DNA from: a virus
DNA: 64,000 nt
Direction: 5' to 3' (one strand)
IMG/VR virus record: IMGVR_UViG_3300030329_003436
Coordinates: 1-64,000 of that record
A model generated the notes under the pieces. The model was given only the letters and a program-made list of their open reading frames with translations. It was not told the origin of the DNA and ran no database searches. Positions within the stretch are counted from its first letter, which is position 1; the number at the start of each line of letters is the position of its first letter. Positions 2,337 to 24,693 of the stretch are shown here, in pieces. Both the position numbers and the translations under genes were made by a program.

Positions 2337-2378
2337 AGATGTAGGAACTTTACAACACCCTGCACTGAAGGATCACGG

Positions 2379-2753: not shown

Positions 2754-3261
2754 TGAATTAGACAGAGTAACTCAAAAAAATCAAGAAGAGCTTGAAGAAC
2801 AACTGATCCGTAATAATTACGGGCTGGTAGTTTCTCAAGCTCTTTTATTTTTTAAAGACACGTCAAAACACTATACACTAGAAGATTGTATTCAGGTTGG
2901 CTTAGTAGGGTTATTAAAATCTATAAGAAAACATGATCCTAAAAAGTCTAAGTTTCCAGTGTACGCAACGGTGTGTATAAAAAATGCAATATCCAGCTTT
3001 GTAAAAAAACATAGTAAAAAGAACAAGGTTGTGTTTGATACAAAAGCACTTAATAGCTCATTAAATGGCAGACACTATCTTGACAAAGATAATATTGCAA
3101 GCTATCTGACTAAACTGAATGAGCAGGAATTGTTCATAATAACCAAGAAGATGGAAAACTACACTAACTCTGAGATATGCGAGATACTGTCTTGCACTAG
3201 AAACGCCTTAAAGAATAAAATTACAGATATAATTAATAAGCTTGAAGAACATAACAAATGA
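2746..3261 (+). CDS. Sigma-70-family-like transcription factor
   Basis: A 171-residue protein with the outline of a small sigma factor. Residues about 45-95 (LEDCIQVGLVGLLKSIRKHD, then a PVYATVCIKNAISSFVKKHSK stretch) match sigma region 2, including the core-binding helix and the Y/W-A-x-x-x-I-x-x-x-I pattern of the -10 reading helix. The C-terminus (about 130-165) is a helix-turn-helix like region 4 (SEICEILSCTRNALKNKI). It would redirect host RNA polymerase, most likely to late phage promoters; the shared TGGTGTATAATA boxes before late genes are candidates. It overlaps ssb and, by ATGA, the first glycosyltransferase gene. Confidence 0.7.
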   Translation: MSDELDRVTQKNQEELEEQLIRNNYGLVVSQALLFFKDTSKHYTLEDCIQVGLVGLLKSIRKHDPKKSKFPVYATVCIKNAISSFVKKHSKKNKVVFDTKALNSSLNGRHYLDKDNIASYLTKLNEQELFIITKKMENYTNSEICEILSCTRNALKNKITDIINKLEEHNK

Positions 3262-4895
3262 GAAAAAAGAGAGTTCTATTCTGCTCAGAGGCTACCTACT
3301 TAAACACTGGCTATGCAACATACGCCAGAGAGGTTTTAAGCAGGCTACATGCTTCTGGAAAATATGAAATTGCTGAATTTGCTAGCTATGGAAAAGATGG
3401 CGACCCTCGCAATAATGACATTCTGTGGAAATTCTACCCCAACCAGCCTCATGATAGTGATTTAGCAGGCAACCAAGAATACGCTTCAGTTCCAACCAAT
3501 CAGTTTGGAGAATGGAGATTTGAAAACGTTCTTTTGGATTTTCAGCCAGATTTCGTTTGTGACATAAGAGATTTCTGGATGATAGATTACCAAGAAAGGT
3601 CTCCTTTTAGACGGTTGTTCAATTGGGTTATAATGCCAACCGTAGACGCCTCACCACAAAACGAACAGTGGATAGCTACGTATTCTAATGCAGATGCCGT
3701 TTTTAGTTATTCGGACTGGGGAGGTTCGGTATTAAAGAATGAGTCCAATGGCAAGGTCAATTACTTAGGCACTGCATCTCCTTCTGCTCACGCTATCTAT
3801 AGTCCAGTTGAAGACAAGCAAGCCCATAAAGAAAGAATGGGGTTCGACGCAGACACTCTTATACTTGGAACAGTGATGCGCAATCAAAGAAGAAAGCTGT
3901 TCCCAGACCTGTTTGAAGCCTTTAGAAAATTCTTAGATATGTACGACAAGAACGACGTGTTTTTGTATTGTCATACTAGTTATCCAGATTTGGGATGGGA
4001 TCTGCCTAAGCTGATAAATCGTTACGGGCTATCAAGCAAAATCCTAGTGACATATTCTTGCCCACAATGCAATTACGCCTTTCCTATGTATTTTTGTGAC
4101 GCCAAAACAAAATGCCCTCGCTGCGGAGGAAAGTCTGCTGGCCTATCCAACGTACAAAATGGTGTTGAATATGATTTTCTATCTGAAATATTTAATACCT
4201 TTGATTTGTATATACAGTATGCAAACAGTGAGGGTTTTGGGATGCCGCAGGTTGAAGCCGCCGCCTGTGGAGTACCTGTTGCTAGCGTAGATTACTCGGC
4301 AATGAGTAGCGTAGTGAGAAAGCTTGAGGGCTACCCAATCAAACCCCAAGCCCTATATAACGAACTAGAAACCGGCTGCAATAGAGCAGTTCCAAATAAC
4401 GATGCAGCCGCCAAGGTTATATATGATTTTTTCAATTTGTCTGAAGAAGAACGAAAAGAAAAAAGCAAGCAAACAAGGTCTGCTTTTGAAAAGCACTACC
4501 AGTGGGATGCGACCGCCAAGATGTGGTCTGATTATTTTGACTCTGTAGAAATTAGACCTCGTGAAGAAACATGGCTATCACCACCAAGAATACATAAGTT
4601 TCCTAGAGACGTTCCCGAACATCTTGACACTAGACAATTAGCCCAGTGGCTCATAGTCAACGTCCTTGGCGAACCAGAACGATTGAACTCTTATTTTGAA
4701 TCTAGATTAATGAGAGATCTTAACTGGGGTATACACATCCAAGGAACTGGAGAAATGTATCTGAACGAAGATTCTTATGCTTTTGTAAAACCGGACTATC
4801 AAAAATTTACAATTGAAGAGGCTTTCAATATGATGGCTGGTCTTTGTGCTAGAAGAAATGAATGGGAAAAAACAAGGGTGGAAATTGTAAGATGA
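3258..4895 (+). CDS. GT4-like glycosyltransferase with internal zinc ribbon
   Basis: A 545-residue GT-B glycosyltransferase. The N-terminal half opens with LFCSEATYLNTGYATYAREVL, a Rossmann start with a GT4-like acceptor loop. The donor half contains SEGFGMPQVEAAACGVPVAS, the GT4 E-x7-E signature, followed by an AMSSVV stretch. Between the two lies an unusual insert, C268-P-Q-C271 ... C286-P-R-C289-G-G, a four-cysteine zinc ribbon not found in ordinary GT4 enzymes. A C-terminal extension of about 120 residues (from about 430) has no recognised fold. It is the first gene of the glycan block and overlaps its neighbours by ATGA on both sides. The sugar donor and acceptor cannot be read from sequence. 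Confidence 0.8.
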   Translation: MRKKRVLFCSEATYLNTGYATYAREVLSRLHASGKYEIAEFASYGKDGDPRNNDILWKFYPNQPHDSDLAGNQEYASVPTNQFGEWRFENVLLDFQPDFVCDIRDFWMIDYQERSPFRRLFNWVIMPTVDASPQNEQWIATYSNADAVFSYSDWGGSVLKNESNGKVNYLGTASPSAHAIYSPVEDKQAHKERMGFDADTLILGTVMRNQRRKLFPDLFEAFRKFLDMYDKNDVFLYCHTSYPDLGWDLPKLINRYGLSSKILVTYSCPQCNYAFPMYFCDAKTKCPRCGGKSAGLSNVQNGVEYDFLSEIFNTFDLYIQYANSEGFGMPQVEAAACGVPVASVDYSAMSSVVRKLEGYPIKPQALYNELETGCNRAVPNNDAAAKVIYDFFNLSEEERKEKSKQTRSAFEKHYQWDATAKMWSDYFDSVEIRPREETWLSPPRIHKFPRDVPEHLDTRQLAQWLIVNVLGEPERLNSYFESRLMRDLNWGIHIQGTGEMYLNEDSYAFVKPDYQKFTIEEAFNMMAGLCARRNEWEKTRVEIVR

Positions 4896-6016
4896 AGGTT
4901 TTATACATAGGTCATTATAGAGAAGGTACGGGCTGGGGAAGAGCCGCTATAGACTACATACTGTCTATGGATGCCGCTGGCATCGAGGTTGTGCCTAGAG
5001 CCGTAAAACTTAACGACAGACAGCCGGAACTTCCTCGAAGGCTGTTGGAGTTAGAAAATCAGGAATCTTCCGGGTGCGATGTTTGCATACAGCATGTTCT
5101 TCCTCACTTAATGGATTTTCACCCAAAGTTCAAAAAGAACATAGCCTTGTATGCTACCGAAACAAGTAATTTCAAATATTCAACTTGGCCTAGAAAAATA
5201 AACCTGATGGACGAGGCTTGGGTTATCAATAATCAAATGGTTGAAGCTTCTGTTAATAGCGGGATCACAGTGCCTATAAAGGTAATTCCGCACGCGACAG
5301 ACTTTGAGAAATTTACACAGAGACATAAAAAGCTTGACCTTCCAATACCAGACGACAACTTTATATTTTATACGGTTGGCGAATTCAACAAGAGGAAAAA
5401 CTTAAGAGCTTTTGTTACGGCTTTTCATTTAGAGTTTGAGAGAAATGAACCGGTTTCAATTTTAATAAAGACAAACAAGGCTGGTCTAAGCGCAGACCAA
5501 TGCGCCGAACAAGTTCAGAGTCTTTGTAACGAAATTAAACAAGGGTTAAAACTGTACCCATCTTCCAATGACTACAAAGAGGATTTTATAATAACTGACT
5601 ATTTGTCCGAAAAAGATATAGAAAGGGTTCATCAGTCTTGTGACTGTTTTGTTATGCCAAGCCATGGGGAAGCATGGTGCATCCCTGCGTTTGACGCGAT
5701 GGGGTTTGGAAACACTCCTATATGCACTAATACTGGCGGTATGGCCGATTTTTTGCGGAAAAGCGCCAACATAGGAGCGGGCGGTGTTTTGGTGGATGCA
5801 AGATTAGAACCCGTCACAGGAGCATTAGATACGCTATCTGATATCTTCACAGGTAAGGAAGAGTGGGCGTCTATTGATATACAAAAACTTAGAAAAGCCA
5901 TGAGAGACATGTACGAGTCTGACAGAACAGACATGAAAACTCACGGTCTGGAACGAGCTATGAAATATTCCCATAGGGAGATTGGCAATGTAATAAAAGA
6001 GGCACTAAATGCTTAG
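4892..6016 (+). CDS. GT4 family glycosyltransferase
   Basis: A 374-residue GT-B enzyme. It begins KVLYIGHYREGTGWGRAAID, the nucleotide-fold start with the GxG loop of GT4. It continues through IPHATDFEKF and a TVGEFNKRKN donor-domain start to the HGEAWCIPAFDAMGFGNTP signature and GGMADFL. ATG at 4892 is preferred because the fold starts there and it makes the ATGA overlap usual in this operon; an in-frame ATG at 4862 would lie inside the previous gene. The next gene starts 8 bases before its stop. Confidence 0.82.
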   Translation: MKVLYIGHYREGTGWGRAAIDYILSMDAAGIEVVPRAVKLNDRQPELPRRLLELENQESSGCDVCIQHVLPHLMDFHPKFKKNIALYATETSNFKYSTWPRKINLMDEAWVINNQMVEASVNSGITVPIKVIPHATDFEKFTQRHKKLDLPIPDDNFIFYTVGEFNKRKNLRAFVTAFHLEFERNEPVSILIKTNKAGLSADQCAEQVQSLCNEIKQGLKLYPSSNDYKEDFIITDYLSEKDIERVHQSCDCFVMPSHGEAWCIPAFDAMGFGNTPICTNTGGMADFLRKSANIGAGGVLVDARLEPVTGALDTLSDIFTGKEEWASIDIQKLRKAMRDMYESDRTDMKTHGLERAMKYSHREIGNVIKEALNA

Positions 6017-7019
6017 TCCGGTATCCTCCATAACCAGAGCGTCTGCTAGAAAAATAAATGACCCTCTGAATATACTGACCTTTCCTACACACGAAAGGTA
6101 CGAAACGCTTTTATGTAAAACGGGGCATAATTTCTATGCCTATAGAGCAGAAGGTATAAAAGATTGGAATACGAACAATGCCGCTATTCCAGAAAACTAT
6201 ACTCTTTTAGATCCCACGCTGGGAGATAAACAAATACCGGCCTATCTGGATTTTGATCTAGTTTTGTCTCAAAACAAGTTTGGTCAATTCCAACTGGCCG
6301 AACCAATAGCGAAACGGTTTCATCTTCCTTTGGTTAGTCTTGAGCATACGCTTCCAGTCCCCTATTGGCCTCCCGAAGTTTTAGAGCAAACCAGAACAAT
6401 GCAGGGTGACATCAACGTATTCATTTCAAAATATAGTATTGGCGCTTGGGGGTGGGATGCGCCAAATACTAGTGTCATTACTCATGGGGTAGATACAACA
6501 TTATTTAAGCCAGCAGAAAAAGAAAGAGAGAACCATGCTCTGTCAGTGGTAAATGATTGGATCAACAGGGATTGGTGCTGCGGTTTTAACATATGGCAAA
6601 ACGTATCAAAAAAATATCCAACAAGAGTGATAGGCGACACGCCGGGATTATCGAAACCAGCATCCAGTATAGAGGAATTGGTGGATGCCTACCAAACCAG
6701 TAGAATATTTCTGAACACTTCTACAATATCACCTATTCCAACTTCTTTACTTGAAGCTATGGCTTGCGGATGTGCTGTTGTGTCTACAGCTACCTGTATG
6801 ATACCAGAAGTAGTAGAGCATGGAGTTAACGGCTTTTTAGGGGAGACGGAAGAAGAATTAGAAGAATATTTAGTAGAACTTCTGAATGATGAGGATTTGG
6901 CCACGAAATTAGGAAATGAGGCTAGAAAGACTATAGAAAGCAGATTTTCAGAAGATCAATTTGTTGGCAGATGGGAACATCTGCTTTATGAAGCGTCAAA
7001 AGTATGTTTTAGAGGTTAA
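6009..7019 (+). CDS. GT4 family glycosyltransferase
   Basis: A 336-residue GT-B protein. ITHGVDTTLFKP marks the domain linker, and SPIPTSLLEAMACGCAVVS with IPEVVEHGVNGFLGET is the textbook GT4 donor-binding end. The N-terminal half is short and divergent (VSLEHTLPVPYWPPE), so acceptor recognition probably differs from its two upstream GT4 neighbours. The C-terminus (RKTIESRFSEDQFVGRWEHL) is the usual closing helix. Confidence 0.82.
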   Translation: MLSPVSSITRASARKINDPLNILTFPTHERYETLLCKTGHNFYAYRAEGIKDWNTNNAAIPENYTLLDPTLGDKQIPAYLDFDLVLSQNKFGQFQLAEPIAKRFHLPLVSLEHTLPVPYWPPEVLEQTRTMQGDINVFISKYSIGAWGWDAPNTSVITHGVDTTLFKPAEKERENHALSVVNDWINRDWCCGFNIWQNVSKKYPTRVIGDTPGLSKPASSIEELVDAYQTSRIFLNTSTISPIPTSLLEAMACGCAVVSTATCMIPEVVEHGVNGFLGETEEELEEYLVELLNDEDLATKLGNEARKTIESRFSEDQFVGRWEHLLYEASKVCFRG

Positions 7020-7020
7020 G

Positions 7021-7485
7021 ATGAAAGTAAGCATAACTGTAGGTTCACCGTTCCGAAAAAATGGTTATCTAAATATAGACCCTATAACAAAACCGGATGG
7101 TCTAGATGTAGACATTAGAAATTTAGATGACGTAGTAGACGACGCAGAGTGTACCGAATTTATAGCCGAAGATGTTCTCGATTACCTTGAAAGCTCTGAA
7201 GCTGATAAGGTATTAAATCACTGGATAGGCAAGCTTAGAAGAGGTGGTAAGATTGTGATAGGAGGCACGGACGCATACGAAGCCTCTAAAATGTTTTATC
7301 AGCAAAAAATTGATTTAGAAGAGTTTAACAAATTAGTTCACGGGGCATTTTCTCAGCCGTGGGATGTAAGGTTACACAATGTAACGTTAGAATACATGCA
7401 ATCAAAGCTAGAAAATGCGGGATTAAAAGTAACAAAAAAAAGACTTGATGGTTATCGGATAGTCATAGAAGGAGAAAGAGAGTGA
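7021..7485 (+). CDS. Methyltransferase-like protein lacking a clear SAM-binding loop
   Basis: A 154-residue protein resembling the small SAM-dependent methyltransferases of polysaccharide clusters: GYLNIDP, DVDIRNLDDV, an AEDVLDYLES stretch where that family has the 'hvLEHl' element, then IGKLRRGGKIVIGG and a final LENAGLKV. The glycine-rich motif I that holds SAM is replaced by SITVGSPFRKNGY, so activity is doubtful. ATG at 7021 is chosen over an in-frame ATG at 6961, because the preceding gene ends at 7019 and the family fold starts here. The next gene begins at an overlapping GTGA. Confidence 0.55.
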   Translation: MKVSITVGSPFRKNGYLNIDPITKPDGLDVDIRNLDDVVDDAECTEFIAEDVLDYLESSEADKVLNHWIGKLRRGGKIVIGGTDAYEASKMFYQQKIDLEEFNKLVHGAFSQPWDVRLHNVTLEYMQSKLENAGLKVTKKRLDGYRIVIEGERE

Positions 7486-8291
7486 CATTTCAACAAAACC
7501 AGCCGCAGGGCTTGACAACATCATGTAAAGACTGTGTATTCTCAGAAAAAGAAGAAAAAACACAAACCGGATGCTCTCTTAATAGAATTGAAAAATTCAA
7601 AGATAGGGGTGTGTTTGTTGTAGAAGCAGAAGATCTCGAAGAAAACGAATTCTATGTCATCGAATCTTGGTGCGCAGCATATAGAGAAGAGCCATGGAAA
7701 GAGGGTGTGGACGATATCCACACCAAGGTTAGAGAAGAATACCAAGTAAGAGTTGGCTATCTTGTCATTGCAGACGAGGAGTCCGCGACTGACTACTCTA
7801 GTAAACTGCAAAAAACCCTAGATTCTATTTTGGCTCAATCTATTTCGCCCAGCTACATGCTTATGATTAACAAAATTCCAGACGAGCATGTAAATATTAT
7901 ACAATCTACGGTAACAGTAATGGATGGCGTAGATTTTGAATATAAAATTACCTCTATGTATGAAAAAGGCGCAACAGACGATGAAGCCATAGACGAAGTT
8001 TTTAATAAGGTTAAAAACGGATTTTACATGGTGGTCAAGGTCGGTCATGAATTGAGACCAGATCTTACGAAAAAATTAAATCAGTCCATAAATGAAGAAC
8101 TTCATAAAGTTGCTTACATAGATGGCTACGACGGCGTTAATGGAAGAACTGCTCAGGCAGCTATACATAAACACTTAAACGGTAATGTTGTTAAACCGTT
8201 AAAAGAAAAACTGAAAGAAGTCTCCAGTTTTGAAGAAAAGTCTAGCCTCACCTATACATGGGAAGACATTGACCAGCTATGCATAGAGTAA
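7482..8291 (+). CDS. Cysteine-containing protein with GT2-like region, function unknown
   Basis: A 269-residue protein starting at GTG in a GTGA overlap. The first 65 residues carry C14-x2-C17, C31 and C61, a plausible metal site (SCKDCVFSE ... TGCSLNR ... WCAAYRE). The middle (VRVGYLVIADEES, KLQKTLDSILAQSISPSYML) recalls the start of GT2 glycosyltransferases (Q...P...I), but no DxD motif follows, so catalysis is not supported. It overlaps a genuine GT2 gene by 13 bases and may act with it. No firm function is proposed. Confidence 0.6.
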   Translation: MTFQQNQPQGLTTSCKDCVFSEKEEKTQTGCSLNRIEKFKDRGVFVVEAEDLEENEFYVIESWCAAYREEPWKEGVDDIHTKVREEYQVRVGYLVIADEESATDYSSKLQKTLDSILAQSISPSYMLMINKIPDEHVNIIQSTVTVMDGVDFEYKITSMYEKGATDDEAIDEVFNKVKNGFYMVVKVGHELRPDLTKKLNQSINEELHKVAYIDGYDGVNGRTAQAAIHKHLNGNVVKPLKEKLKEVSSFEEKSSLTYTWEDIDQLCIE

Positions 8292-9055
8292 CAATCCTTA
8301 TAGCCTGCTATAACGACGAAGACTATATAGATAGTGCCATAGAAAGTGCCTTTAACCAAGATTACCAAGGCCCAATGACTATTTGTGTTATTGATGATGG
8401 TTCTACAGACAGGTCTCTGGAGATAGCCAAAGGCTATTTTAGCAAACCGCTTTCTGACAGCTACCGTGATAATGAAGTATGGTTTCAGGAAGACAGGGGA
8501 AGGTTTGGAAACACCAAATATGTTGTAATGACAAAGCCCAATGGTGGCCCCAGCGATGCAAGAAACTGGGGTATAGGCTATGCTTGGCCTCATACAGATA
8601 TCTATGCAGTACTCGACGCAGACGACCAGATGTACGAGAACAAAATATCTACATGTGAAAAAGTTATGTCTGAAGATATGGAAACGGTAGGAGTGGTATA
8701 TGCTGATTATGATACACACCATATCGACACAGACAAAATAATAAGAGAATTTAAAGAACCTTACAGCAGAAAAAGGCTAATAGAAGAATGCGTTGTTCAT
8801 AGCGGTTCTTTAATCAACAAAAAGGCTCTTGACAACACGCATGAAGACACGGGGTACTATGATTTTACCATGAGAACTTGCGAGGACTACGATCTGTGGA
8901 TGAGAATAAGTGAGAAGTTTATGCTGGTTCATGTTCCTCAGTCGCTAACGCTTGTTCGGGTAACTGGAGACAATTCCAGTTTTGTAGTTAATCAAGAAGT
9001 CTGGCAAAGAAACTGGTCTAGAGTAATGGAAAAAATGCAAGACAGGCTTCAATGA
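8279..9055 (+). CDS. GT2 family glycosyltransferase
   Basis: A 258-residue GT-A enzyme of family 2. Its start VTILIACYNDEDYIDSAIES, then VIDDGSTDRSLEIAK, is the canonical nucleotide-binding half. NGGPSDARNWGI and VLDADDQM provide the acceptor loop and the metal-binding DxD-type motif. CEDYDLWMRISEKF is the E/D-D base region usual in GT2. It has no membrane segment, so it is probably a soluble enzyme acting at the inner face of the membrane. Donor unknown. Confidence 0.88.
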   Translation: MHRVTILIACYNDEDYIDSAIESAFNQDYQGPMTICVIDDGSTDRSLEIAKGYFSKPLSDSYRDNEVWFQEDRGRFGNTKYVVMTKPNGGPSDARNWGIGYAWPHTDIYAVLDADDQMYENKISTCEKVMSEDMETVGVVYADYDTHHIDTDKIIREFKEPYSRKRLIEECVVHSGSLINKKALDNTHEDTGYYDFTMRTCEDYDLWMRISEKFMLVHVPQSLTLVRVTGDNSSFVVNQEVWQRNWSRVMEKMQDRLQ

Positions 9056-9768
9056 TAGTAAAAAATAGATTTGTAACTACAGCCCAGAAGAAGCTTTCTC
9101 CGGGTCAGGCTCAGGAAAGCCCTCTTACTGTAATCATCCCTATAGCGGGAGTTGGTCACAGAATGAAGTCTTATGGGCCTAAATGCCTTCTCCCGGCAAA
9201 CAAAAAAGAAAGCATAATACAAAAAAGCATATCTACAGTAAAAAAAGTTTTTCCATATGCAGAGATCATAGTGGTTGTTGGCTTTGAGGCCGACAAAGTA
9301 ATCAAATGCATACCGGAAGACGTTAGAATAGTAGAGAACCAATTTTATGAAACTACCAATGTGGTAGAAAGTTTGAGACTAGCATTAAACTGCTCAATCA
9401 ACACAAACATTTTAATATTGTATGGCGACTTAATTTATAACACACACACCATAAGCGATATATCAAAAGATGAATCCTGCATCGTTATAGACTCAAAAAA
9501 TCGTTTCAAGGCAGAAGAAGTTGGTGTAACGGTAGTCGAAGGATCTGTTACCAATTTTGCATACGGACTTCCAACTAAATGGTCTCACATTATATACATG
9601 GCCGAAAGAGAGTCTAGATTTTTTAAGAAGCTTTGTGGTGACAGAAAAAGAAACAAGATGTACCCCTTTGAGATATTTAATTATATGATATCCAAGGGGT
9701 TTAGTTTTAAAGCAGTAGAACCTAGCGGAATGAATATCCGAGAAATAGATTCTATGAAAGATTTGTAG
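9052..9768 (+). CDS. Nucleotidyltransferase (sugar- or choline-phosphate type)
   Basis: A 238-residue protein with the NTP-transferase signature IAGVGHRMKSYGPKCLLP (the G-x-G-x-R-M...P-K loop), IIVVVGFEADKV, and TTNVVESLRLAL, the segment resembling LicC-type cytidylyltransferases. ILYGDLIY stands at the metal-binding position. It would activate a phosphorylated sugar, phosphocholine or similar group to a CDP or NDP donor for the transferases around it. It overlaps the GT2 gene by ATGA. Confidence 0.75.
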   Translation: MIVKNRFVTTAQKKLSPGQAQESPLTVIIPIAGVGHRMKSYGPKCLLPANKKESIIQKSISTVKKVFPYAEIIVVVGFEADKVIKCIPEDVRIVENQFYETTNVVESLRLALNCSINTNILILYGDLIYNTHTISDISKDESCIVIDSKNRFKAEEVGVTVVEGSVTNFAYGLPTKWSHIIYMAERESRFFKKLCGDRKRNKMYPFEIFNYMISKGFSFKAVEPSGMNIREIDSMKDL

Positions 9769-9769
9769 A

Positions 9770-14894: not shown

Positions 14895-14956
14895 TTATAA
14901 TATTGGTGTACATATAACAAATCACTACAGTATAGGCATAGACACAAGGGAAGACT
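14895..14956 (+). promoter_or_regulatory. Intergenic gap with AT-rich promoter-like boxes
   Basis: This is one of only two gaps over 50 bases in the plus-strand operon. It holds TATAAT (14896-14901), TGGTGTA (14904-14910) and TATAA shortly after. The TGGTGTA part equals the first seven bases of the 12-base box found before two late minus-strand genes, but here TATAA follows after two extra bases. AAGGGAAG near the end is the ribosome site of the next gene. Promoter function is an inference. Confidence 0.35.
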
Positions 14957-16602: not shown

Positions 16603-17216
16603 AGCTCTCTAAGTGGATTGAAAATAATATTTTTATCACCACATTAGACCATGAAGACATAGAAAAAAAATATCTTCAAAATAACATTGTTGTTATAGAT
16701 GGCTTTGTTTCCGAAGAAGATGTAGGCATATTTAATGATTTACAAGTCATGAATGTTGGATGGAACCCCAAATCTTGTCAAAATGGAGTAATGAGAAAGA
16801 TATGGTACGATGACGCAATAAAAAAACCCAGAAGATACTCTAACCATCCACAATTTAAAGCTGCGCTAATAAGACTGGAAGAAAAAATAAAGTACTTTGC
16901 CAAGGGGTTTAGCTTTATCAACAACTCTCATTATCAAGACGGCTGGTTGGACTACGATGCAACACTTAGGGTTTCAGAAATTGCAAACGAGGAGATGCAT
17001 CTAGATCAGTACAAATTCAATCCTTTGCGGGTGTTTGTAAACATAGATAATACTCACAGGATATGGAAAACAACATCAAAGAATGAAGATTTTAAAAGTG
17101 GCGAAAAACACTTAATAGCATTTGCCCCCGGAACCCTGTGGTGCTGCAACACAAAAGAAGTTCCTCACCAAATCAGTTATGGCAAGAGGGCCGCACTGTT
17201 TACGTTTTATTTTTAA
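16587..17216 (+). CDS. 2OG-Fe(II) oxygenase-like protein
   Basis: A 209-residue protein with the outline of a 2-oxoglutarate/Fe(II)-dependent hydroxylase. NIVVIDGFVSEEDV is the usual start. The iron ligands would be H138-x-D140 (EEMHLDQYK) and H194 (VPHQISYGKRAALF), with R201 as the 2OG-binding arginine. Spacing between the HxD and distal His fits the family. The substrate may be a sugar or a protein; its place between glycan genes favours a sugar or lipid group. It overlaps the previous gene by 16 bases. Confidence 0.6.
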   Translation: MQTDIKLSKWIENNIFITTLDHEDIEKKYLQNNIVVIDGFVSEEDVGIFNDLQVMNVGWNPKSCQNGVMRKIWYDDAIKKPRRYSNHPQFKAALIRLEEKIKYFAKGFSFINNSHYQDGWLDYDATLRVSEIANEEMHLDQYKFNPLRVFVNIDNTHRIWKTTSKNEDFKSGEKHLIAFAPGTLWCCNTKEVPHQISYGKRAALFTFYF

Positions 17217-17220
17217 TGAC

Positions 17221-17985
17221 ATGAATATTTTATATACAACCACATTTAACGACAAGTTATTCAATGCCACTGGACGAGGCATGATTACATCCTTTGTTCG
17301 TTGTAAAACAGAGGGTGAAATGCTTATTGCCCACGAGGGGGTTGAGCTTCCCAAGCATAGAAAATTTATAGAATACGACCTGTCACAAGACGAGTTTCTT
17401 AATCGCTGGTTAAAAGAAAACGAAGACGTGATACCTGTAGACTTGGGTGGCAAGTTTGAAGGCGTATTTGAAAATAAGTTTAGATACAGGGCTAGTCAAT
17501 GGTTTAGAAAAATACCAACCCTTAAAAAGGCATTGGAACATGACTATGATGCCATAGTCTTTGTAGACTCTGATGTAATATTTAAGTTCGGGACATACAA
17601 AGAGAATAAATCCGCCCTCACCTCAAACATTATCTCAGAGGTTTTTGGAGACTGCGGGGTCTTTTGTCACTACGGAAAGGGAAGAAGGGCAAGAGGTCTC
17701 GGTGTAGAATGTGGCTTTGTTGGGTTTCATATGACCAATGGTGGTAGGGAGTTTCTTGAGATTGTAATAGACATATTCGACAGCGGAAAATTTCGAGAAT
17801 ATGAAAGATGGGACGATAGCTACATATTTGGAGAGGTTATAAAATCTCACCCGGAGATAAAAGTAAACGATTTGGTAGAAAACGAACTGGAGTGCGATGT
17901 GGTTGAAAGAGGGGTTTTTGATTCCTTTATCACCCACGACAAGGGAGTACACTGGAGAGAGCATGGTTTTGAAAGCCCCGGTTAG
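17221..17985 (+). CDS. GT-A-like glycosyltransferase, family unclear
   Basis: A 254-residue protein starting MNILYTTTFNDKLFNATGRG. AIVFVDSDVIFKFGTY holds a D-S-D metal-binding motif after a run of hydrophobic residues, as in GT8/GT-A enzymes. GVECGFVGFHMTNGGREFLE resembles the acceptor region, and FITHDKGVHWREHG ends with a possible His/Asp donor site. ATG at 17221 follows the previous stop by 4 bases and gives a natural fold start; an upstream in-frame ATG lies inside the previous gene. Confidence 0.62.
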   Translation: MNILYTTTFNDKLFNATGRGMITSFVRCKTEGEMLIAHEGVELPKHRKFIEYDLSQDEFLNRWLKENEDVIPVDLGGKFEGVFENKFRYRASQWFRKIPTLKKALEHDYDAIVFVDSDVIFKFGTYKENKSALTSNIISEVFGDCGVFCHYGKGRRARGLGVECGFVGFHMTNGGREFLEIVIDIFDSGKFREYERWDDSYIFGEVIKSHPEIKVNDLVENELECDVVERGVFDSFITHDKGVHWREHGFESPG

Positions 17986-18715
17986 CATAATAAACAAGAG
18001 CTACAATCAGCGCAGTTCTGTTGTTTGCGGGGCTTTTGCCAAAGGCTGTTGTGGATCAACCATGTCATTAAAGATGTGGTTTGATTTATGGATGAAGCGT
18101 CAAAACCCTCCGAGAATAGCCGCTTATGGAGTTCTGTATGGTGGAGAGACGGTAATTCAGAACACGCCAAAATACTGGCATATTGATCATGGATATTTTG
18201 GACGTTCTACAGACCCAGACTTATATGATGGATATTATAGAATAACCCACAATAATTTTTGGCACAACGGCTCTGGAGACCATACTTGGGATAGATTTAA
18301 CGGCCTAAATGTAGAGCTAAAAAACTGGAGGAAGTCTGGAAGTCATATTGTAATAGTTCCACCCTCAAAACACATGGCTTCAGTACTAAACTTACAGACA
18401 TGGCTAGAAGAAACGATTTTTAAAATTAAAAAACATACGGATCGAAAGATCTTGGTTTCCACAAAATATAAAAACCCGATGTCAAAGGTTATAAAAAACG
18501 CTTGGTGCGTCGTGGCGGATCATTCAAATTCCGCAATAGACGCTATGGTACAAGGCATTCCCGCAATTTTCACGAACCCAGCCAGAAAGCTAGGCTCAAT
18601 AGAGGGTATAGAAAATCCCCCTATGGACAGAGAGTTTTTTAAGAACCTAGCTCATCAGCAATGGACTCTGGATGAAATTAAATCAGGAAGAGCATGGGAG
18701 AATTTAAATGAGTAG
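17963..18715 (+). CDS. KpsS-like glycosyltransferase-like protein, copy 2 of 3
   Basis: A 250-residue paralogue of the proteins at 15625 and 19289. IKNAWCVVADHSNSAIDAMV-Q-G-I-P corresponds to the capsule-type GT-B donor site. KNLAHQQWTLDEIKSGRAW is the shared ending. HTWDRFNGLNVELKNWR lies where copies 1 and 3 have SPSDRW/F. It is shorter than its relatives at the N-terminus. ATG at 17963 follows GGAGAGA; the gene overlaps the previous one by 23 bases. Confidence 0.62.
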   Translation: MVLKAPVSIINKSYNQRSSVVCGAFAKGCCGSTMSLKMWFDLWMKRQNPPRIAAYGVLYGGETVIQNTPKYWHIDHGYFGRSTDPDLYDGYYRITHNNFWHNGSGDHTWDRFNGLNVELKNWRKSGSHIVIVPPSKHMASVLNLQTWLEETIFKIKKHTDRKILVSTKYKNPMSKVIKNAWCVVADHSNSAIDAMVQGIPAIFTNPARKLGSIEGIENPPMDREFFKNLAHQQWTLDEIKSGRAWENLNE

Positions 18716-19292
18716 ACAAGATAGATACAATTATATAACAGAAGAAATACATAAATGCAAACCGTCAACAATACTGGAGATTGGAACTCATGTGGGTCTT
18801 ACGGCTAGAATAATGATAGAAGCCGCAATGGTTCATAAAGACGACGTTTTCTATTACGGGTTTGACATGTTCGATTTTATGACCGAAGAAATAGCTGTAG
18901 AAGAGTATCATGGCAAAAGCCTTCCTACGCTACAAACAGCGTCAAAAAGACTTCGTGGTTTTCCACATAAACTAAAAATGGGAAACACGCAGAAAACACT
19001 ACCTAAATTTAAACCAGACAGACCCATAGACTTTGTTTTTATTGACGGGGGACATTCTGTAGAAACAATCCAAAGCGACTGGGACAGCATAAAAAAATTG
19101 ATCCACAAAGATACAGTTGTTATATTTGACGATTATTATAATGAAACAGAAGAGGTAGGATGCAAACCTGTCGTAGATTGCTTGGGTGATGAATACGTTG
19201 TAGAAAAATTATACACTTGGGAGAGAACCGACGAAGAAAAGTTTACTAAGGAAGTTTTCGACCTTACTCTCATTAAAGTTACACTAAGATGA
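18708..19292 (+). CDS. Class I SAM-dependent methyltransferase (Methyltransf_24 type)
   Basis: A 194-residue methyltransferase. STILEIGTHVGLTARIM supplies the glycine-rich SAM loop (E-I-G-x-x-x-G). IDFVFIDGGHSVETIQSDW with VVIFDDYYNE is the signature of the Methyltransf_24 group common in polysaccharide clusters. It would methylate a sugar hydroxyl or a related acceptor. It lies between KpsS-like copies 2 and 3 and overlaps both, so its product is probably made with theirs. Confidence 0.8.
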   Translation: MSRQDRYNYITEEIHKCKPSTILEIGTHVGLTARIMIEAAMVHKDDVFYYGFDMFDFMTEEIAVEEYHGKSLPTLQTASKRLRGFPHKLKMGNTQKTLPKFKPDRPIDFVFIDGGHSVETIQSDWDSIKKLIHKDTVVIFDDYYNETEEVGCKPVVDCLGDEYVVEKLYTWERTDEEKFTKEVFDLTLIKVTLR

Positions 19293-20188
19293 TAGGAATA
19301 TTTCAGAACACGGGTAAAGACGCCCTACACAAACAGACCGTGACAATGGATGCCGTAAAAAACGGAATAAGAAATCTAGGGCATGAGTATTTTTCCACTA
19401 CCATCGAAGAGTACAGACGGTGTGATATTGCAATAGTTTGGGGTTCTCCCAAAAACATTAGAGCAGACTCCTACTTCTTAAAGAACATATACGATTGCCA
19501 AAAACGAAATGGCGGTAAAATTATTGTTCTTGAGAGAGGGTTTCTCAAAAGAGAGGATTACTATTTGATTGGGTGGGATTGTCCGGGGGGATGTGGAGAT
19601 TATAAAAACGATAACATGCCCTCCGACAGATTTGAAGAGCTTGACATTCAAGTAAAGCCTTGGAAACAAGAGCAGGGTGAAAATCTCAGCGTTCTTGTGT
19701 GCGGACAAATTCCTTGGGATCAAAATATACAAGACATAAGCCTAAGAAGCTGGTGCAGATTTGTTTCACACCAACTAAACACAAAGGTTGATAAAAATTG
19801 TAAAATTAGATATAAACCGCACCCAAAAATAATATCACATAAGGGGTATGGACGCCGTTACGACAAGGCAATAGACATGACTTCTTTTGGTATGGCGAAC
19901 GTAGAAGAAGAAAATCTATCAAAGGCAATAGAAGAAAAGAAGATTGATATTGTTATCTGTTATAGTTCAAATTCTGCTGTTGAGGCCGTGATCAATGGAA
20001 CGCCAGCCATTACCTTTAGTGAATCTTCCATGGCTTGGGATGTAACTTCTCATGAAATTAACCATCAAACTATAACAAACCCCTTTATGCCAGATAGAAC
20101 ACAATGGCTAAACAATCTGGCGTATACTCAATGGAATTTAGAAGAGATATCACAGGGTCTTCCGTTTAAACACTTAGGAATAATTTAG
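19289..20188 (+). CDS. KpsS-like glycosyltransferase-like protein, copy 3 of 3
   Basis: A 299-residue paralogue of the proteins at 15625 and 17963. It has IDIVICYSSNSAVEAVINGT-P-A-I, the clearest capsule-type donor motif of the three, and the ending NNLAYTQWNLEEISQGLPF. IRYKPHPKI in the middle is the R-x-K-x-H-P element typical of KpsS/CDP-glycerol transferase folds. MPSDRFEEL matches the middle motif of copy 1. It overlaps the methyltransferase gene by ATGA. Confidence 0.68.
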   Translation: MIGIFQNTGKDALHKQTVTMDAVKNGIRNLGHEYFSTTIEEYRRCDIAIVWGSPKNIRADSYFLKNIYDCQKRNGGKIIVLERGFLKREDYYLIGWDCPGGCGDYKNDNMPSDRFEELDIQVKPWKQEQGENLSVLVCGQIPWDQNIQDISLRSWCRFVSHQLNTKVDKNCKIRYKPHPKIISHKGYGRRYDKAIDMTSFGMANVEEENLSKAIEEKKIDIVICYSSNSAVEAVINGTPAITFSESSMAWDVTSHEINHQTITNPFMPDRTQWLNNLAYTQWNLEEISQGLPFKHLGII

Positions 20189-20200
20189 AGGAATTATGCA

Positions 20201-20578
20201 ATGGGTCATAAAACATTAACAGGTGCTATTCAGGGAAAATTTTGGGGTACAACACGCTGCTTTTTTGAGAACTGCACAAGCGAGGTGCATTACATCGAAG
20301 CGGTAAAGGGTGGATACTGCTCTCGACATCATCACGAGAATAAATGGAACCGTTTTATTGTGCTTGAAGGCGCTCTTAAGGTTATTATATATAAGCAGGA
20401 TAGTGAGGATGAGACAATTTTAACAGACGGGATGTTTTCGGATGTTCCGCCCGGAGTAGACCATCGTTTTGAGGCTTTAGAAGATACGAAAGCGTTAGAA
20501 GTTTATTGGATTGATGGACTAGACCCTTCAGATATAGTGAGAAAAGATACGGGTGGACTTAACAAGCCTGAAAATTGA
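20201..20578 (+). CDS. Cupin-domain protein
   Basis: A 125-residue single-domain cupin. Motif 1 is GGYCSRHHHENKWNRFIVLE-G with H-x-H and E metal ligands, and motif 2 is PPGVDHRF with the last histidine. This resembles the metal-binding C-terminal domain of mannose-6-phosphate isomerase/mannose-1-phosphate guanylyltransferase and small sugar isomerases, so sugar-phosphate or nucleotide-sugar isomerisation is plausible. GAGGAATTATGCA precedes the ATG. A signalling or storage cupin is the alternative. Confidence 0.78.
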   Translation: MGHKTLTGAIQGKFWGTTRCFFENCTSEVHYIEAVKGGYCSRHHHENKWNRFIVLEGALKVIIYKQDSEDETILTDGMFSDVPPGVDHRFEALEDTKALEVYWIDGLDPSDIVRKDTGGLNKPEN

Positions 20579-21248
20579 TAAGCCTGTTCTTTTAATTGGT
20601 TCGTCAAACAGTATAGAAAAGTTTGATGGTTATCAGGACTACTTCACTTTGTCTACCGGAAAATCACTTTATGCCATCGACAAGGTTGACATTGTGGTTT
20701 CTTTGGATCTGATTCGGATTATACATAATATATCGAACTTTAGAAAAAGATGGCGACATCACCTAATTCCACATTGCATATCACATCACCTATGGGGGGA
20801 AAGGCAAAAGGAAACGGAGATACTAAACCCTTCTTTTGGTGTCTTTCTCTATACCAGAAGACCCGCATATTCAAATATGTTCTTCAATCTAGAGGACTTC
20901 TGTTCATTCAAAGAAAGCAAGGGTGTATATGAAGGACTGAACATATCCCATCCAATTGTATCCTTTGAAAAAGCAGACACAATTATTGACTTTCAAAGAT
21001 TCAATACTGTAAGATTTTTAAGAGAAGATGTTGATAACATTCAAGCAATGAAGAATAACGATGGCGTATTAAGAAATATGTCTAGTAGTTTACACTTTCT
21101 TATCAATCTTCTTTGGTTGAACGGCGTACAACAAATTAAAACAATAGGCATAACAGAAGAGCATAAAAGTTGGAAAGACACCGAAAGCATGTTCTCACTG
21201 TACAACATAAAATACGAAAGGCTCGAAGATGAAATTGATCTCTCATAG
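20553..21248 (+). CDS. Unknown protein of the glycan block
   Basis: A 231-residue protein starting at GTG, overlapping the cupin gene by 26 bases; no ATG start is available near the fold start. VLLIGSSNSIEKFDG and VDIVVSLDLIRII recall DUF115/MptE-like and sialyltransferase-like proteins that begin with a glycine-rich 'G-x-S/G-x-S' loop and a later D. MSSSLHFLINLLWLNGVQQI followed by KTIGIT is a buried helix and strand of a Rossmann-type fold. The likeness is weak, so no function is assigned. Confidence 0.6.
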   Translation: MDLTSLKIDKPVLLIGSSNSIEKFDGYQDYFTLSTGKSLYAIDKVDIVVSLDLIRIIHNISNFRKRWRHHLIPHCISHHLWGERQKETEILNPSFGVFLYTRRPAYSNMFFNLEDFCSFKESKGVYEGLNISHPIVSFEKADTIIDFQRFNTVRFLREDVDNIQAMKNNDGVLRNMSSSLHFLINLLWLNGVQQIKTIGITEEHKSWKDTESMFSLYNIKYERLEDEIDLS

Positions 21249-21699
21249 AGGTAACATTAGAGGCCGACACCCAGATTTAGAAAATGACCCCGCGTATATC
21301 AAGCAGGCTCTGTCTCTTGGGTATGACGTAGAGATTGACGTATGGAAAATAAATGGTAACTGGTTTTTAGGACATGACGATCCGTCTTATCCGATTTATC
21401 TTAACTTCCTAATGAACCCCAAGCTTCTCTGTCATGCAAAAAACCTATCCGCTTTAGATGGGATGTTAGTGCATACAAATATTCATTGCTTCTATCATGC
21501 GGACGACCCATATACGCTTACTAGTAATGGGTACATAGTTAGTTACCCCGGATACGAGGTTACAAACAGGACTATATGCATGAAACCAGAGTTGGCCAGA
21601 CCCAATTTAAACTGCTATGCAATTTGTTCTGATTATATTGAACTGTTTAAGAAAATGGATACGGGTTCTGTAAGCGTGGGCTTCAATGAAACACGATGA
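21229..21699 (+). CDS. GDPD/PI-PLC-like phosphodiesterase, short form
   Basis: A 156-residue protein with the signature of glycerophosphodiester phosphodiesterases: ISHRGN with the first catalytic His, then GYDVEIDVWKINGNWFLGHD, giving the E-x-D metal pair and second His. The family is usually about 230-250 residues; this one ends after a HTNIHCF segment and NCYAICSDYIELF, so part of the barrel is short. It could release or process glycerophospho-groups used on the glycan. It overlaps the previous gene by 20 bases and the next by 14. Confidence 0.68.
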   Translation: MKLISHRGNIRGRHPDLENDPAYIKQALSLGYDVEIDVWKINGNWFLGHDDPSYPIYLNFLMNPKLLCHAKNLSALDGMLVHTNIHCFYHADDPYTLTSNGYIVSYPGYEVTNRTICMKPELARPNLNCYAICSDYIELFKKMDTGSVSVGFNETR

Positions 21700-22360
21700 T
21701 GTAACAATAGTACTACAGGGGCCATTGCACACCAAAGGAGGGTCGTTGTGTCGGGGTATACATAACATACCCACGTACATGAAGTTTGTTGGCGCTTCAA
21801 TTATATCGACTTGGAAAAACGACGGCATTAAACCGACCAAAAGGTTTTTAGCCAGCAACAACACGACCTACATTGAAGATGACCCAGAAAAGTATTCCAA
21901 AGTTTTTAACTGGATGAACGTAAATTTTCAGGTGGCGTCTTCATTAAATGGAATGAGAAAAGTAAAAACAAAATATGTTATAAAAGTAAGGTGTGATGAA
22001 AAGTATGAAGACATGTCTGTTTTTATAAAAACGATGAAAGAAAATCCAGAAATGTTGACTACACAGGAACCATTTTATAGGGATGTTACGGAGAAGAAAT
22101 ACATTTCTGATCATGTTATGGGTGGATTGACAACAAAAATGACGGACATGTTTGAAGAAGCCTATGAGATATGCGAAAAGTTCGACGTTCCAAAAAAAGA
22201 TTACGCCCCCGAAAATATATTGAAAAAGAGTTTTGATGGCGATAATGTTTGGGTGTCAATATTTGATTTTGGCGACTTCTTATTCAAAATGAATACCGAG
22301 AGAATAACAAGAGCAGCGATTAAAAAAATGAAGGGAAATTTTAAATGGCAAAAATCCTAG
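21686..22360 (+). CDS. WavE-like lipopolysaccharide synthesis protein
   Basis: A 224-residue protein resembling the WavE family of LPS core synthesis. DVTIVLQGPLH is the 'I-x-Q-G-P' start. IISTWKND is the conserved S-T-W. QVASSLNGMRKVKTKYVIKV followed by RCDEKYEDM provides the R-x-D/E motif. This points to work on an LPS-like surface glycan. It overlaps both neighbours. Confidence 0.68.
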   Translation: MKHDDVTIVLQGPLHTKGGSLCRGIHNIPTYMKFVGASIISTWKNDGIKPTKRFLASNNTTYIEDDPEKYSKVFNWMNVNFQVASSLNGMRKVKTKYVIKVRCDEKYEDMSVFIKTMKENPEMLTTQEPFYRDVTEKKYISDHVMGGLTTKMTDMFEEAYEICEKFDVPKKDYAPENILKKSFDGDNVWVSIFDFGDFLFKMNTERITRAAIKKMKGNFKWQKS

Positions 22361-23280
22361 TAACGGGCGGTGGCGGATATGTAGGCAATGTCTTGTGTCG
22401 CCATCTTCTCGATAAAGGGTATCGGGTAAAATGTGTTGACAATTTTCATAAGGGTCAATGCGATGCTATTATACCCCTAGCTACAAACCCCAATTTTGAG
22501 TTTGAGTATGGGGATGTTACAAGACTAGAACAAATGAAGGAGGCTATCCTTGGGTGTGACGCTGTTATTCACCTTGCTGCTATTGTTGGCTTTCCGGCTT
22601 GCAAATCCCAGCCCTCGCTCGCCACGGCGGTAAACATAGATGGCACAAAAAACATGCTGGAAGCCCGCAAATCCTATAATCCCAAAATGCCATTCGTTTA
22701 CGCCTCCACAGGCAGCGTCTACGGCAAAGTGGAGGGTATTTGCACAGAAGAGTCCCCACTAAATGCCGTGTCGCTCTACGGCGTAAATAAGCGTGTTGCA
22801 GAGGAAATGGTGGCCGCACAAGATAATACAGTCTCATTTAGGTTTGCTACAGGGTTTGGTGTTAGCCCATGTATGCGGGTGAACTTGCTCGTAAACGATT
22901 TTGTTTATCAGGCAATCACAAATAAGATACTTACTATTTTTCAAGCAGACTTCCGGCGAACTTTTATCCATGTAAGAGATATGGCAAAGGCTTTTACTAT
23001 GGGCGTTGAGCATATGGGTAACTGGAAACATAAGGTTTATAACTGCGGGGCAAACGACCTAAATTGGACAAAAAGGGAGCTTGCGGAATATGTCAAGGAA
23101 AAAACAGAATGCTTTGTACATTATGAAGAAATTGGAAAAGATGCTGACCAAAGAGACTACGAAGTGAGTTATGATAAGTTAGAAGCCGAGGGGTTTAACT
23201 GCGACGTAGACATGAAGACCGGCATCAACGAATTAATCAAAGTAGCACCAATATTACAGATTAGGCATCAGTATTCATGA
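22345..23280 (+). CDS. Extended SDR nucleotide-sugar epimerase (GalE/WbpP-like)
   Basis: A 311-residue enzyme with KILVTGGGGYVGNVLCRHLL (GxxGxxG), DAVIHLAAIVG, YASTGSVYG and the catalytic Y-G-V-N-K. The gene's middle (about 22575-22840) is visibly richer in G and C than its neighbours, with many GCC and CTC codons, which hints at recent acquisition of this segment. It overlaps the WavE-like gene by 16 bases and the next SDR gene by 4. Confidence 0.83.
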   Translation: MAKILVTGGGGYVGNVLCRHLLDKGYRVKCVDNFHKGQCDAIIPLATNPNFEFEYGDVTRLEQMKEAILGCDAVIHLAAIVGFPACKSQPSLATAVNIDGTKNMLEARKSYNPKMPFVYASTGSVYGKVEGICTEESPLNAVSLYGVNKRVAEEMVAAQDNTVSFRFATGFGVSPCMRVNLLVNDFVYQAITNKILTIFQADFRRTFIHVRDMAKAFTMGVEHMGNWKHKVYNCGANDLNWTKRELAEYVKEKTECFVHYEEIGKDADQRDYEVSYDKLEAEGFNCDVDMKTGINELIKVAPILQIRHQYS

Positions 23281-24230
23281 TTGATATCAAAGACTCAAAA
23301 GTTTTAGTTACGGGCGGCGAAGGCTTTTTTGGTCGTGCTATTTGCGATCAGGTTCGACAAAGAGACGCAGAGCCTATAGTCTTAAGTCATAATAAAGTAA
23401 ATCTAACCGACTTAGAGCAGGCCATTCGTTTTCTAGACGAAACACGTCCAGACTACTGCATTCATGCCGCAGGATATAACGGGGGTATTGAATTTAATAG
23501 AATGTACCCCGCAGATATCCTGTATGCTAACGCGGTTATGGGGTTAAACATTCACCATGCTTGCGAATACATGCAGGTCAAGAAGCTTGTTTCTATAATG
23601 ACATCCTGTGCCTATCCAGATACCGGAATGGAAGTGCTGGAAGAAAACACTTTTTGGGACGGCCTTCCTAATGGAACAATACGCGCGCATGGTTTAGCCA
23701 AGCGAATGCTACAAGCTGCGGCAGAAGCCTATAACAAACAATATGATTTTAAAAGTGTGGCTGTCTGTGTCACAAATCTTTATGGAAGGTATGATACGTT
23801 TAATTTAACTCGCACAAAAGTCGTAGGTGCGCTTATTCGCAAATTCGTAGAAGCCAAACAGGACGAGCATGATTCTGTAGAATGCTGGGGAACCGGCGAT
23901 CCTATGAGAGAATTTATGTATGTCGATGACGCAGCAAACGCTGTTGTCCAAGCGTTAGAAAAATACGATGACGTTACCCTTCCATTAAATATAGGAACTG
24001 GCAGTGACATATCAATCAAACAACTGGTAGAATATATTGTAGCTATAGTAGGATATGAAGGTGAGGTAGTCTGGAATACAGACAAACCCGATGGACAAAT
24101 GAAAAAGCTCTTAAGTGTAGATAGGATGAAAGAGCTTATAGAATTAGATCCTATGAATATCCGAGATGGTCTTACTGCAACCATTAAATGGTATGTTGAC
24201 AATAAAGAAAAAGCTGATGCAAAAGCGTAA
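23277..24230 (+). CDS. GDP-L-fucose synthase-like SDR with altered active site
   Basis: A 317-residue SDR of the GMER/WcaG type: VLVTGGEGFFGRAI, AAGYNGGIEFNRMYPADIL, MTSCAYPDTG and CVTNLYGRYDTFN are all typical. The catalytic Y-x3-K is H138-G-L-A-K142, so the tyrosine is a histidine. The later active-site histidine of GMER falls on K181 (TRTKVVGALIRKF). The serine and neighbouring cysteine are kept. The protein may have changed chemistry, or may bind nucleotide sugar without full activity. It overlaps both neighbours. Confidence 0.75.
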   Translation: MIDIKDSKVLVTGGEGFFGRAICDQVRQRDAEPIVLSHNKVNLTDLEQAIRFLDETRPDYCIHAAGYNGGIEFNRMYPADILYANAVMGLNIHHACEYMQVKKLVSIMTSCAYPDTGMEVLEENTFWDGLPNGTIRAHGLAKRMLQAAAEAYNKQYDFKSVAVCVTNLYGRYDTFNLTRTKVVGALIRKFVEAKQDEHDSVECWGTGDPMREFMYVDDAANAVVQALEKYDDVTLPLNIGTGSDISIKQLVEYIVAIVGYEGEVVWNTDKPDGQMKKLLSVDRMKELIELDPMNIRDGLTATIKWYVDNKEKADAKA

Positions 24231-24693
24231 AAAAACAGGTATAATTTTAGAAGACCTGAATGCCAGTCAGGTTTCTTATTACGCCATAAAGAATATAAAT
24301 AAATATTTAGAAGATAGCTTAGATGATTTTGTATTGTTCTTTGAGAGCGCTGGGAACTCAGTTATACAACCCCAATGCTCTTCTATGGGAATAAATGAGT
24401 TGTGGAGCTTTGACGGTACTGCAATAGCAACTACTGTATCAACCTGCCTTTCTCTAGCACAAAGTCATTCGACATTAGACAAATATTTTTATGTATGGGA
24501 CTTAGAATGGTCTAGACCTCGTGGTGTAGACTATGATTACATAGTGACGGCTTTTAACAATCCTGAAATCAAGCTAATAGCAAGAAGCAAGGATCATGCG
24601 AAAGCCATAAAAAACTATTGTAATAGAGATGTTTGCGGAGTGGTTCCAAACTTTTGTGTAGAAAATTTAATGAAAGTAATTAATAATGAGTAG
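24217..24693 (+). CDS. Small GT-B-like fragment of unknown function
   Basis: A 158-residue protein starting KRKKTGIILEDLNASQVSYY. Its alternation of strands and helices (FVLFFES, KYFYVWDLEW, IKLIARSKDHAKAI, GVVPNFCVENLMKVI) recalls half of a GT-B glycosyltransferase, as if a donor or acceptor domain alone were encoded. No catalytic motif is visible. ATG at 24217 overlaps the previous gene by 14 bases; an upstream in-frame ATG at 24166 is inside that gene. It is the last gene of the glycan block. Confidence 0.6.
   Translation: MQKRKKTGIILEDLNASQVSYYAIKNINKYLEDSLDDFVLFFESAGNSVIQPQCSSMGINELWSFDGTAIATTVSTCLSLAQSHSTLDKYFYVWDLEWSRPRGVDYDYIVTAFNNPEIKLIARSKDHAKAIKNYCNRDVCGVVPNFCVENLMKVINNE

Follow-up and report, generated by a model that had tools for sequence, protein, structure and literature searches.

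What does a phage build with 26 consecutive genes for glycan synthesis, and on which acceptor? The question is raised by a block at positions 3258-24693 of the window, which is the first 64 kb (64,000 nucleotides) of the 97,582-bp virus record IMGVR_UViG_3300030329_003436; record coordinates beyond the window are written C1:. An initial annotation had proposed about 26 consecutive, overlapping genes in this interval, and 26 plus-strand open reading frames (ORFs) were indeed called there, nearly gapless, with neighbours overlapping or touching and with only two intergenic gaps (62 bp at 14895-14956 and 12 bp at 20189-20200). The overlaps of more than ~30 bp at 6961, 12793, 17122, 17897 and 24166 probably reflect the choice of the longest ORF; internal ATGs are present. 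That annotation overlooked three features reported here: a locus shared across the phage lineage, a conserved core joined to a hypervariable cargo, and a GDP-mannose 4,6-dehydratase (GMD) gene beside the terminase gene.

Gene content and phage context

The block encodes at least 10 glycosyltransferases (GTs), two nucleotidyltransferases, three sugar short-chain dehydrogenases/reductases (SDRs), a methyltransferase and a cupin. The Pfam matches comprised three Glycos_transf_1 domains, GT2, Glyco_trans_1_2, GT25, Capsule_synth, WavE and three epimerase-type SDRs (down to 4.1e-47), together with an NTP-transferase (1.1e-9), a HAD and NTP-transferase fusion, Methyltransf_24 and the cupin. The Capsule_synth-like GT has two paralogues inside the block by BLAST. 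The earlier description of transferases of at least six kinds was judged fair on these matches, and the presence of both donor-making and transfer steps in a phage-borne block was supported by the Pfam assignments of NDP-sugar enzymes and GTs.

The block lies within a plus-strand gene run (69-26633) that comprises exonuclease, DnaE-like, SSB and sigma-like genes, the 26 block genes, an HNH-like gene and a gene in the Erf position. The genes from 26738 onward are on the minus strand, among them one for a tape measure of 2346 aa; beyond the window lie the large terminase gene and a weak match to a major head protein. On the strength of these three markers, the contig is a genuine tailed phage. 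The base composition of the block was not distinct from that of the left flank, and internal promoters or terminators showed no clear excess in the block over shuffled sequences.

A fixed locus in a phage lineage

Relatives were sought by IMG/VR scans with a DnaE-like query and an Erf-position query, which returned 15 and 97 contigs, respectively. The DnaE-like gene was present in all 50 relative contigs searched. In 48/48 IMG/VR relatives with both flanks mapped, the block was located between the exonuclease/DnaE/SSB module and the HNH/Erf-like module, with the two flanks on the same strand and a DnaE-to-Erf distance of 10.6-30.5 kb (23.2 kb in the window). A separate IMG/VR contig (L086) crosses the left junction and is 100% identical at the protein level. 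For further analysis, 61 loci were compared, consisting of the window, 47 of the 48 mapped relatives and 13 further, mostly smaller, loci; the 1059 block proteins from their co-directional ORFs were clustered into 160 families. The block varied from 4.6 to 27.5 kb and from 6 to 32 genes. Every gene compared in close pairs gave a dN/dS of ~0.01-0.26, indicating purifying selection.

The lineage is uncultured and largely marine. No DNA match to known phages was found in the phage collection. The terminase was closest to those of SPbeta-like, Bacillus and Microcystis phages (23-30% identity) and was at most ~30% identical to that of any catalogued phage. A terminase scan of bacterial genomes identified four metagenome-assembled genomes (MAGs) of unrelated groups (SAR202, Alphaproteobacteria, Flavobacteriales and Gemmataceae), which is probably binning noise. 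The SAR202 MAG carries two separate contigs (L254 and L257) with the GT4a of the lineage, which is only a hint of SAR202 as the host.

A core inherited with the phage

The gene order of the 5' core was constant, with GT4a in 60/61 loci, GT4b in 59/61, GT4c in 54/61, NTPa in 60/61, and GT2 and GT1_2 each in 45/61. The identity of GT4a to the window protein tracked that of DnaE (Pearson r 0.87; mean 52% versus 50%; n = 58). Because the two diverge together, the core is, as judged from these comparisons, a phage gene set inherited by descent with the phage. When 778 bacterial genomes from two classes were searched with the GT4a profile, 776 had no match at E<=1e-40, and the two genomes with a strong match were MAGs holding contigs of the same phage lineage.

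The AlphaFold2 (AF2) model of GT4a had a pLDDT of 89, and its best PDB fold was B736L of chlorovirus NY-2A (E 7.8e-19; target TM-score 0.78), which binds GDP-mannose (PMC9614988). In the core protein at 7482-8291, four cysteines (C15, C18, C31 and C64) were invariant, and its AF2 model (pLDDT 93.8) gave Foldseek matches to GT-A enzymes (E ~2e-6). The best PDB match of the NTPa profile was CTP:phosphocholine cytidylyltransferase (1jyk; E 8.7e-13), so the enzyme is LicC-like, a predicted cytidylyltransferase. Phosphocholine decoration of the LicC/LicD type was considered and set aside: the LicC-like enzyme is present, and the LicD partner was not found in 33 contigs.

Cassette-wise turnover of the cargo

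Between the 5' core and the final gene, the 61 loci held 146 cargo families. Singletons accounted for 67 of the 160 families overall, and the family count was not saturating as loci were added. The cargo included FkbM and other methyltransferases, DegT aminotransferases, GT2, GT8, GT10, GT25 and GT47 enzymes, formyl- and sulfotransferases, a CTP_transf_3 family and PIG-L proteins. The HAD and NTP-transferase fusion was 56-58% identical to proteins of the Synechococcus cyanophages S-CAM9 and S-PRM1.

Two pairs of relatives were informative. Locus G030 aligned with G031 over all of its 57.9 kb at ~95-96% identity, except for ~9 kb at 35.5-44 kb of G030, within the cargo, where genes were missing, replaced or diverged. 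In G023 and G024, the core genes were mostly 76-83% identical in nucleotide sequence (GT4a 95%), while some cargo genes were 98-100% identical, a pattern that points to cargo exchange. From these comparisons, the cargo turns over rapidly by cassette between constant flanks, through gene gain, loss and exchange. In almost every relative, the locus is bordered on the right by an HNH/homing-endonuclease-like gene, and the copy at 24686-25474 might aid the exchange of cassettes.

Between relatives, SDR2 (22345-23280) and the cupin (20201-20578) had a median identity of 85%, versus 63-69% for the core GTs, which may reflect either strong constraint or recent exchange.

Donor-sugar steps

The GMD gene is located outside the block, at C1:89823-90884. 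Its product matched PDB 1n7g (E 6.2e-89) and retains the SSE and YxxxK motifs, and GDP-4-keto-6-deoxymannose is the likely product. The gene was directly upstream of the terminase gene in 27/27 IMG/VR loci with enough flank and in four MAG contigs.

The SDR3 of the block resembles GDP-fucose synthase. In the clade of the window, Tyr136 is replaced by His and His179 by Lys in 17/17 sequences, whereas in the other clade all five active-site residues (Ser/Thr107, Cys109, Tyr136, Lys140 and His179) are retained in 26/27. The change suggests altered chemistry rather than decay, and GDP-fucose is likely made in the clade with the intact active site. A GT10 fucosyltransferase (family c18) was present in 13 loci, all with an intact SDR3-type SDR; the association is weak, both being confined to one clade. 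The window phage is not claimed to have the full route to GDP-fucose: the GMD is sound, but the SDR3 active site is altered throughout its clade.

Functions searched for

The initial annotation had recognised no exporter, and the wider searches agree. No protein with two or more predicted transmembrane segments was present among the 1059 block proteins of the 61 loci, and therefore no Wzy-type or other multi-pass protein. In 33 contigs, no match was obtained for the Wzx flippase (PF01943; 13/14 controls positive) or for the PF02397 initiating transferase, the WecA kind not being searched for. Because of these three results, nothing in the block is expected to flip, polymerise or start a lipid-linked glycan. 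Thymidylate-synthase/hydroxymethylase (PF00303) was likewise absent from the 33 contigs. For Tet/JBP (PF12851), nothing exceeded the cut-off, with one weak 11-bit match and no positive control for that family. Since the records could be incomplete, any absence beyond the block itself is provisional.

Interpretation and alternatives

Judging from gene content, it is quite likely that soluble enzymes form a conserved stem whose tip is altered by the cargo, and the proposal of the initial annotation that the block makes a whole oligosaccharide is plausible. The stem made by the core enzymes would contain a 6-deoxy sugar derived from GDP-mannose and would be attached to an acceptor constant across the phage lineage, and the cargo enzymes would add variable terminal sugars. 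A host-independent acceptor is suggested because the conservation of the stem-building core matches that of the DNA polymerase. Since the acceptor seems host-invariant, and with the chloroviruses as precedent, a virion protein glycosylated in the cytoplasm was judged to fit best; this is the weakest step, and is inferred. The explanation that we tentatively prefer, with slightly less than even confidence, is thus a soluble phage glycan assembly line that places a conserved stem on a constant virion protein and varies its tip through the cargo. The result would be a surface glycotype for each phage, as in the chloroviruses. Each phage, or each infected cell, probably gets its own sugar coat. 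A further step, which we regard as possible but less secure, is that tailed phages have a glycotype locus, in which a virion protein receives its stem from an inherited core while the outer glycan is varied by recombining cassettes, giving serotype-like virion diversity independent of tail-fibre changes.

Remodelling of the host surface is a close rival, and nearly as likely as the virion-protein reading. Here, the phage enzymes would extend or rewrite host lipopolysaccharide (LPS), capsule or lipid-linked precursors with the aid of the host flippase and ligase, superinfection would be blocked, and the diversity of the cargo would reflect a receptor arms race. The gene kinds resemble those of LPS and capsule loci (WavE, GT25, Capsule_synth), the block is co-directional with the replication genes in an early-type placement, and the rapid turnover of cargo amid near-identical DNA is arms-race-like. 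A change of host LPS against superinfection is also the published reading for P-SSM2 (PMC2984593), jumbo cyanophages (PMC7824862) and pelagimyophages (PMC7029224). Yet core GTs conserved like a DNA polymerase would be odd if the acceptor were a host glycan that varies with the host, and no initiating (PF02397), flipping, polymerising or multi-pass membrane protein was found. Glycosylation of DNA bases by the core GTs (T4-like or TET/JBP-type hypermodification), with the sugar extended by the cargo, is improbable. The block does adjoin the replication genes, and some viruses encode DNA glycosyltransferases (work cited in PMC12619734); against this, the modifying enzymes named above were absent or below the cut-off, and methyltransferase, aminotransferase and capsule-type cargo is better suited to a surface glycan. 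As bacterial surface loci typically carry genes of these kinds, an assembly artefact or the recent capture of a bacterial glycan locus was also considered, and has a negligible probability. The junctions were the same in 48/48 relatives and L086 crosses the left one, the divergence of the block parallels that of phage genes, and dN/dS is well below 1. A chimeric contig, which the initial annotation had named as a wrong join that would undo its proposal, or a recent bacterial insertion is ruled out by the syntenic relatives and the co-divergence of GT4a and DnaE, with purifying selection in agreement.

Several points weigh against the preferred explanation. The block is alongside the replication genes and on the opposite strand from the structural genes, a placement that might reflect early expression directed against the host cell. 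Competition at the host surface would readily account for the fast turnover of the cargo, and the host could supply a flippase and a ligase. GT4 folds are common to many acceptor types, and B736L, the closest fold, itself has no proven acceptor. Finally, the LicD transferase (PF04991) was found in 0/33 contigs, leaving the predicted cytidylyltransferase product with no recognised partner.

Feature map and neighbouring genes

Table 1. Genes of the glycan block and its flanks in the window. Labels given 'by eye' are without profile support.
Feature	Coordinates	Strand	Evidence
RNase_T-type exonuclease, left flank	69..752	+	Pfam RNase_T 3.5e-15; syntenic in relatives
DnaE-like finger/HhH part of Pol III alpha, 530 aa, left flank	715..2307	+	Pfam DNA_pol3_finger 6.2e-48
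SSB, left flank	2328..2753	+	Pfam 1.7e-17
Sigma-70-like factor, left flank	2746..3261	+	Pfam Sigma70_r2 1.6e-11
GT4a, core, GT-B fold with Cys4 insertion	3258..4895	+	Pfam Glycos_transf_1 2.9e-10; 60/61 loci
GT4b, core	4862..6016	+	Pfam Glycos_transf_1 2e-14; 59/61 loci
GT4c, core	6009..7019	+	Pfam Glycos_transf_1 2.7e-19; 54/61 loci
Small core protein, methyltransferase-like by eye	6961..7485	+	No Pfam match; 46/61 loci
Cys4 module and truncated GT-A (GT2-like) fold, core	7482..8291	+	Cysteine pattern, AF2, Foldseek
GT2, core	8279..9055	+	Pfam 6.4e-21; 45/61 loci
NTPa, LicC-like nucleotidyltransferase, core	9052..9768	+	Profile vs PDB 1jyk E 8.7e-13; 60/61 loci
GT-B (Glyco_trans_1_2; GT1_2), core	9770..10813	+	Pfam 3.1e-26; 45/61 loci
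SDR1, NDP-sugar epimerase/dehydratase	10810..11754	+	Pfam Epimerase 2.2e-30
Cargo protein	11751..12830	+	No Pfam match; 18/61 loci
GT25, cargo	12793..13515	+	Pfam 2.9e-6
HAD phosphatase and sugar-1-P nucleotidyltransferase fusion, cargo	13512..14894	+	Pfam HAD_2 5.3e-26
Cargo protein, GT8-like by eye only	14957..15628	+	No Pfam match; 6/61 loci
Capsule_synth-like GT paralogue, cargo	15610..16602	+	BLAST to 19289 gene E 3.5e-17
Weak 2OG/Kdo-hydroxylase-like cargo, this locus only	16587..17216	+	Pfam Kdo_hydroxy 6.5e-5, below cut-off
GT-A-like cargo by eye only; probable start ~17221	17122..17985	+	No Pfam match; 5/61 loci
Capsule_synth-like GT paralogue, cargo	17897..18715	+	BLAST to 15610 gene E 1.4e-12
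Methyltransferase, cargo	18708..19292	+	Pfam Methyltransf_24 7.1e-15
Capsule_synth-like GT-B, cargo	19289..20188	+	Pfam 4.9e-4
WbuC-like cupin, cargo	20201..20578	+	Pfam Cupin_2 3.8e-9; 75-93% identity among relatives carrying the cupin
Cargo protein	20553..21248	+	No Pfam match; 6/61 loci
Cargo, GDPD/PI-PLC-like by eye only	21229..21699	+	No Pfam match; 8/61 loci
WavE-like, cargo	21686..22360	+	Pfam 1.2e-10
SDR2 (GalE/RmlB-like)	22345..23280	+	Pfam 1.6e-40; median 85% identity in relatives
SDR3, GDP-fucose-synthase-like, altered active site	23277..24230	+	PDB 1e6u E 3.5e-56
Final block gene, short conserved protein	24166..24693	+	47/61 loci
HNH/homing-endonuclease-like, right flank	24686..25474	+	PHROG 559 2.3e-9; syntenic
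Erf-like (label only), right flank	25474..26295	+	97 IMG/VR relatives

The DnaE-like gene of the window encodes the finger and HhH parts only. Longer open frames (894-1158 aa) were seen in some relatives, and most members of the lineage may therefore have a split polymerase. Downstream of the block, giant proteins of 3096 and 2111 aa are encoded at 28047-37337 and 39174-45509, and a 180-aa protein at 27486-28028, weakly conserved in relatives, has four GFFE repeats, cysteine clusters and a C-terminal KTKGFFE.

Further glycan genes were present outside the block, in two groups in the rest of the record. The group at C1:70189-73451 (L004 6189-9451, minus strand) encodes a GT34, two methyltransferases and a sulfotransferase, and adjoins a 1876-aa tail-spike-like gene. 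In the group at C1:88698-91637 (L005 4698-7637, minus strand), the GMD near the terminase is accompanied by GT-B-like and sulfotransferase-like proteins, both labelled by eye.

Comparison with known systems and significance

Large phage glycan clusters are already known. In P-SSM2, 24 LPS genes are divided between two clusters (PMC2984593), and cyanophage LPS clusters (PMC2984593, PMC7824862) resemble the block in their large sets of GT, epimerase, nucleotidyltransferase and cupin genes; those of jumbo cyanophages are likewise polymorphic between related viruses (PMC7824862), and S-CAM9 and S-PRM1 share the HAD and NTP-transferase fusion. However, the cyanophage clusters belong to T4-like myoviruses, whereas the present phage is not T4-like, as its terminase and the lack of a DNA match to known phages indicate, and has its locus between replication and recombination genes with a GT core traceable throughout the lineage. 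Pelagimyophages have a hypervariable, GT-rich island, a host recognition cluster for which a change of the host surface was proposed (PMC7029224). It is located among tail-fibre and structural genes, unlike the main block described here; only the C1:70189-73451 group is near a tail-spike-like gene.

In chloroviruses, a common core oligosaccharide on the capsid protein bears strain-specific sugars (PMC9614988). This autonomous glycosylation is similar in its viral GTs, viral GMD, and conserved core with a variable outer part, but chloroviruses are viruses of eukaryotic algae with known glycan structures, while the present system is known from genes alone. Bacterial O-antigen and capsule loci also have conserved ends and a variable middle with GT, epimerase, aminotransferase and methyltransferase genes, but the block is without Wzx, the PF02397 initiating transferase or a multi-pass protein. 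Mycobacteriophages offer a parallel for a phage-encoded route to a glycosylated virion, the outcome proposed here from gene content; in their case, glycans were observed on the capsid and tail tube (Freeman 2023, as cited in PMC12619734).

No published description of this phage lineage was found, within incomplete coverage of the literature. As far as it was searched, the constant position of the locus, the inheritance of a core throughout the lineage and the constant GMD beside the terminase are new, as are the finding that near-identical phages differ, within the DNA compared, in their cargo only, and the clade-fixed active-site change in a fucose-synthase-like enzyme.

Phage glycan clusters have mostly been treated as scattered auxiliary genes; here, such a cluster is a fixed part of a widespread lineage. 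Whether phage glycan clusters alter the host surface or coat the virion thereby becomes directly testable, and the core enzymes GT4a, GT4b, GT4c, the LicC-like enzyme and GMD provide a short list for assays. Should the virion prove to be what is coated, the surface of tailed phages would be a diversifying one, comparable to O-antigens.

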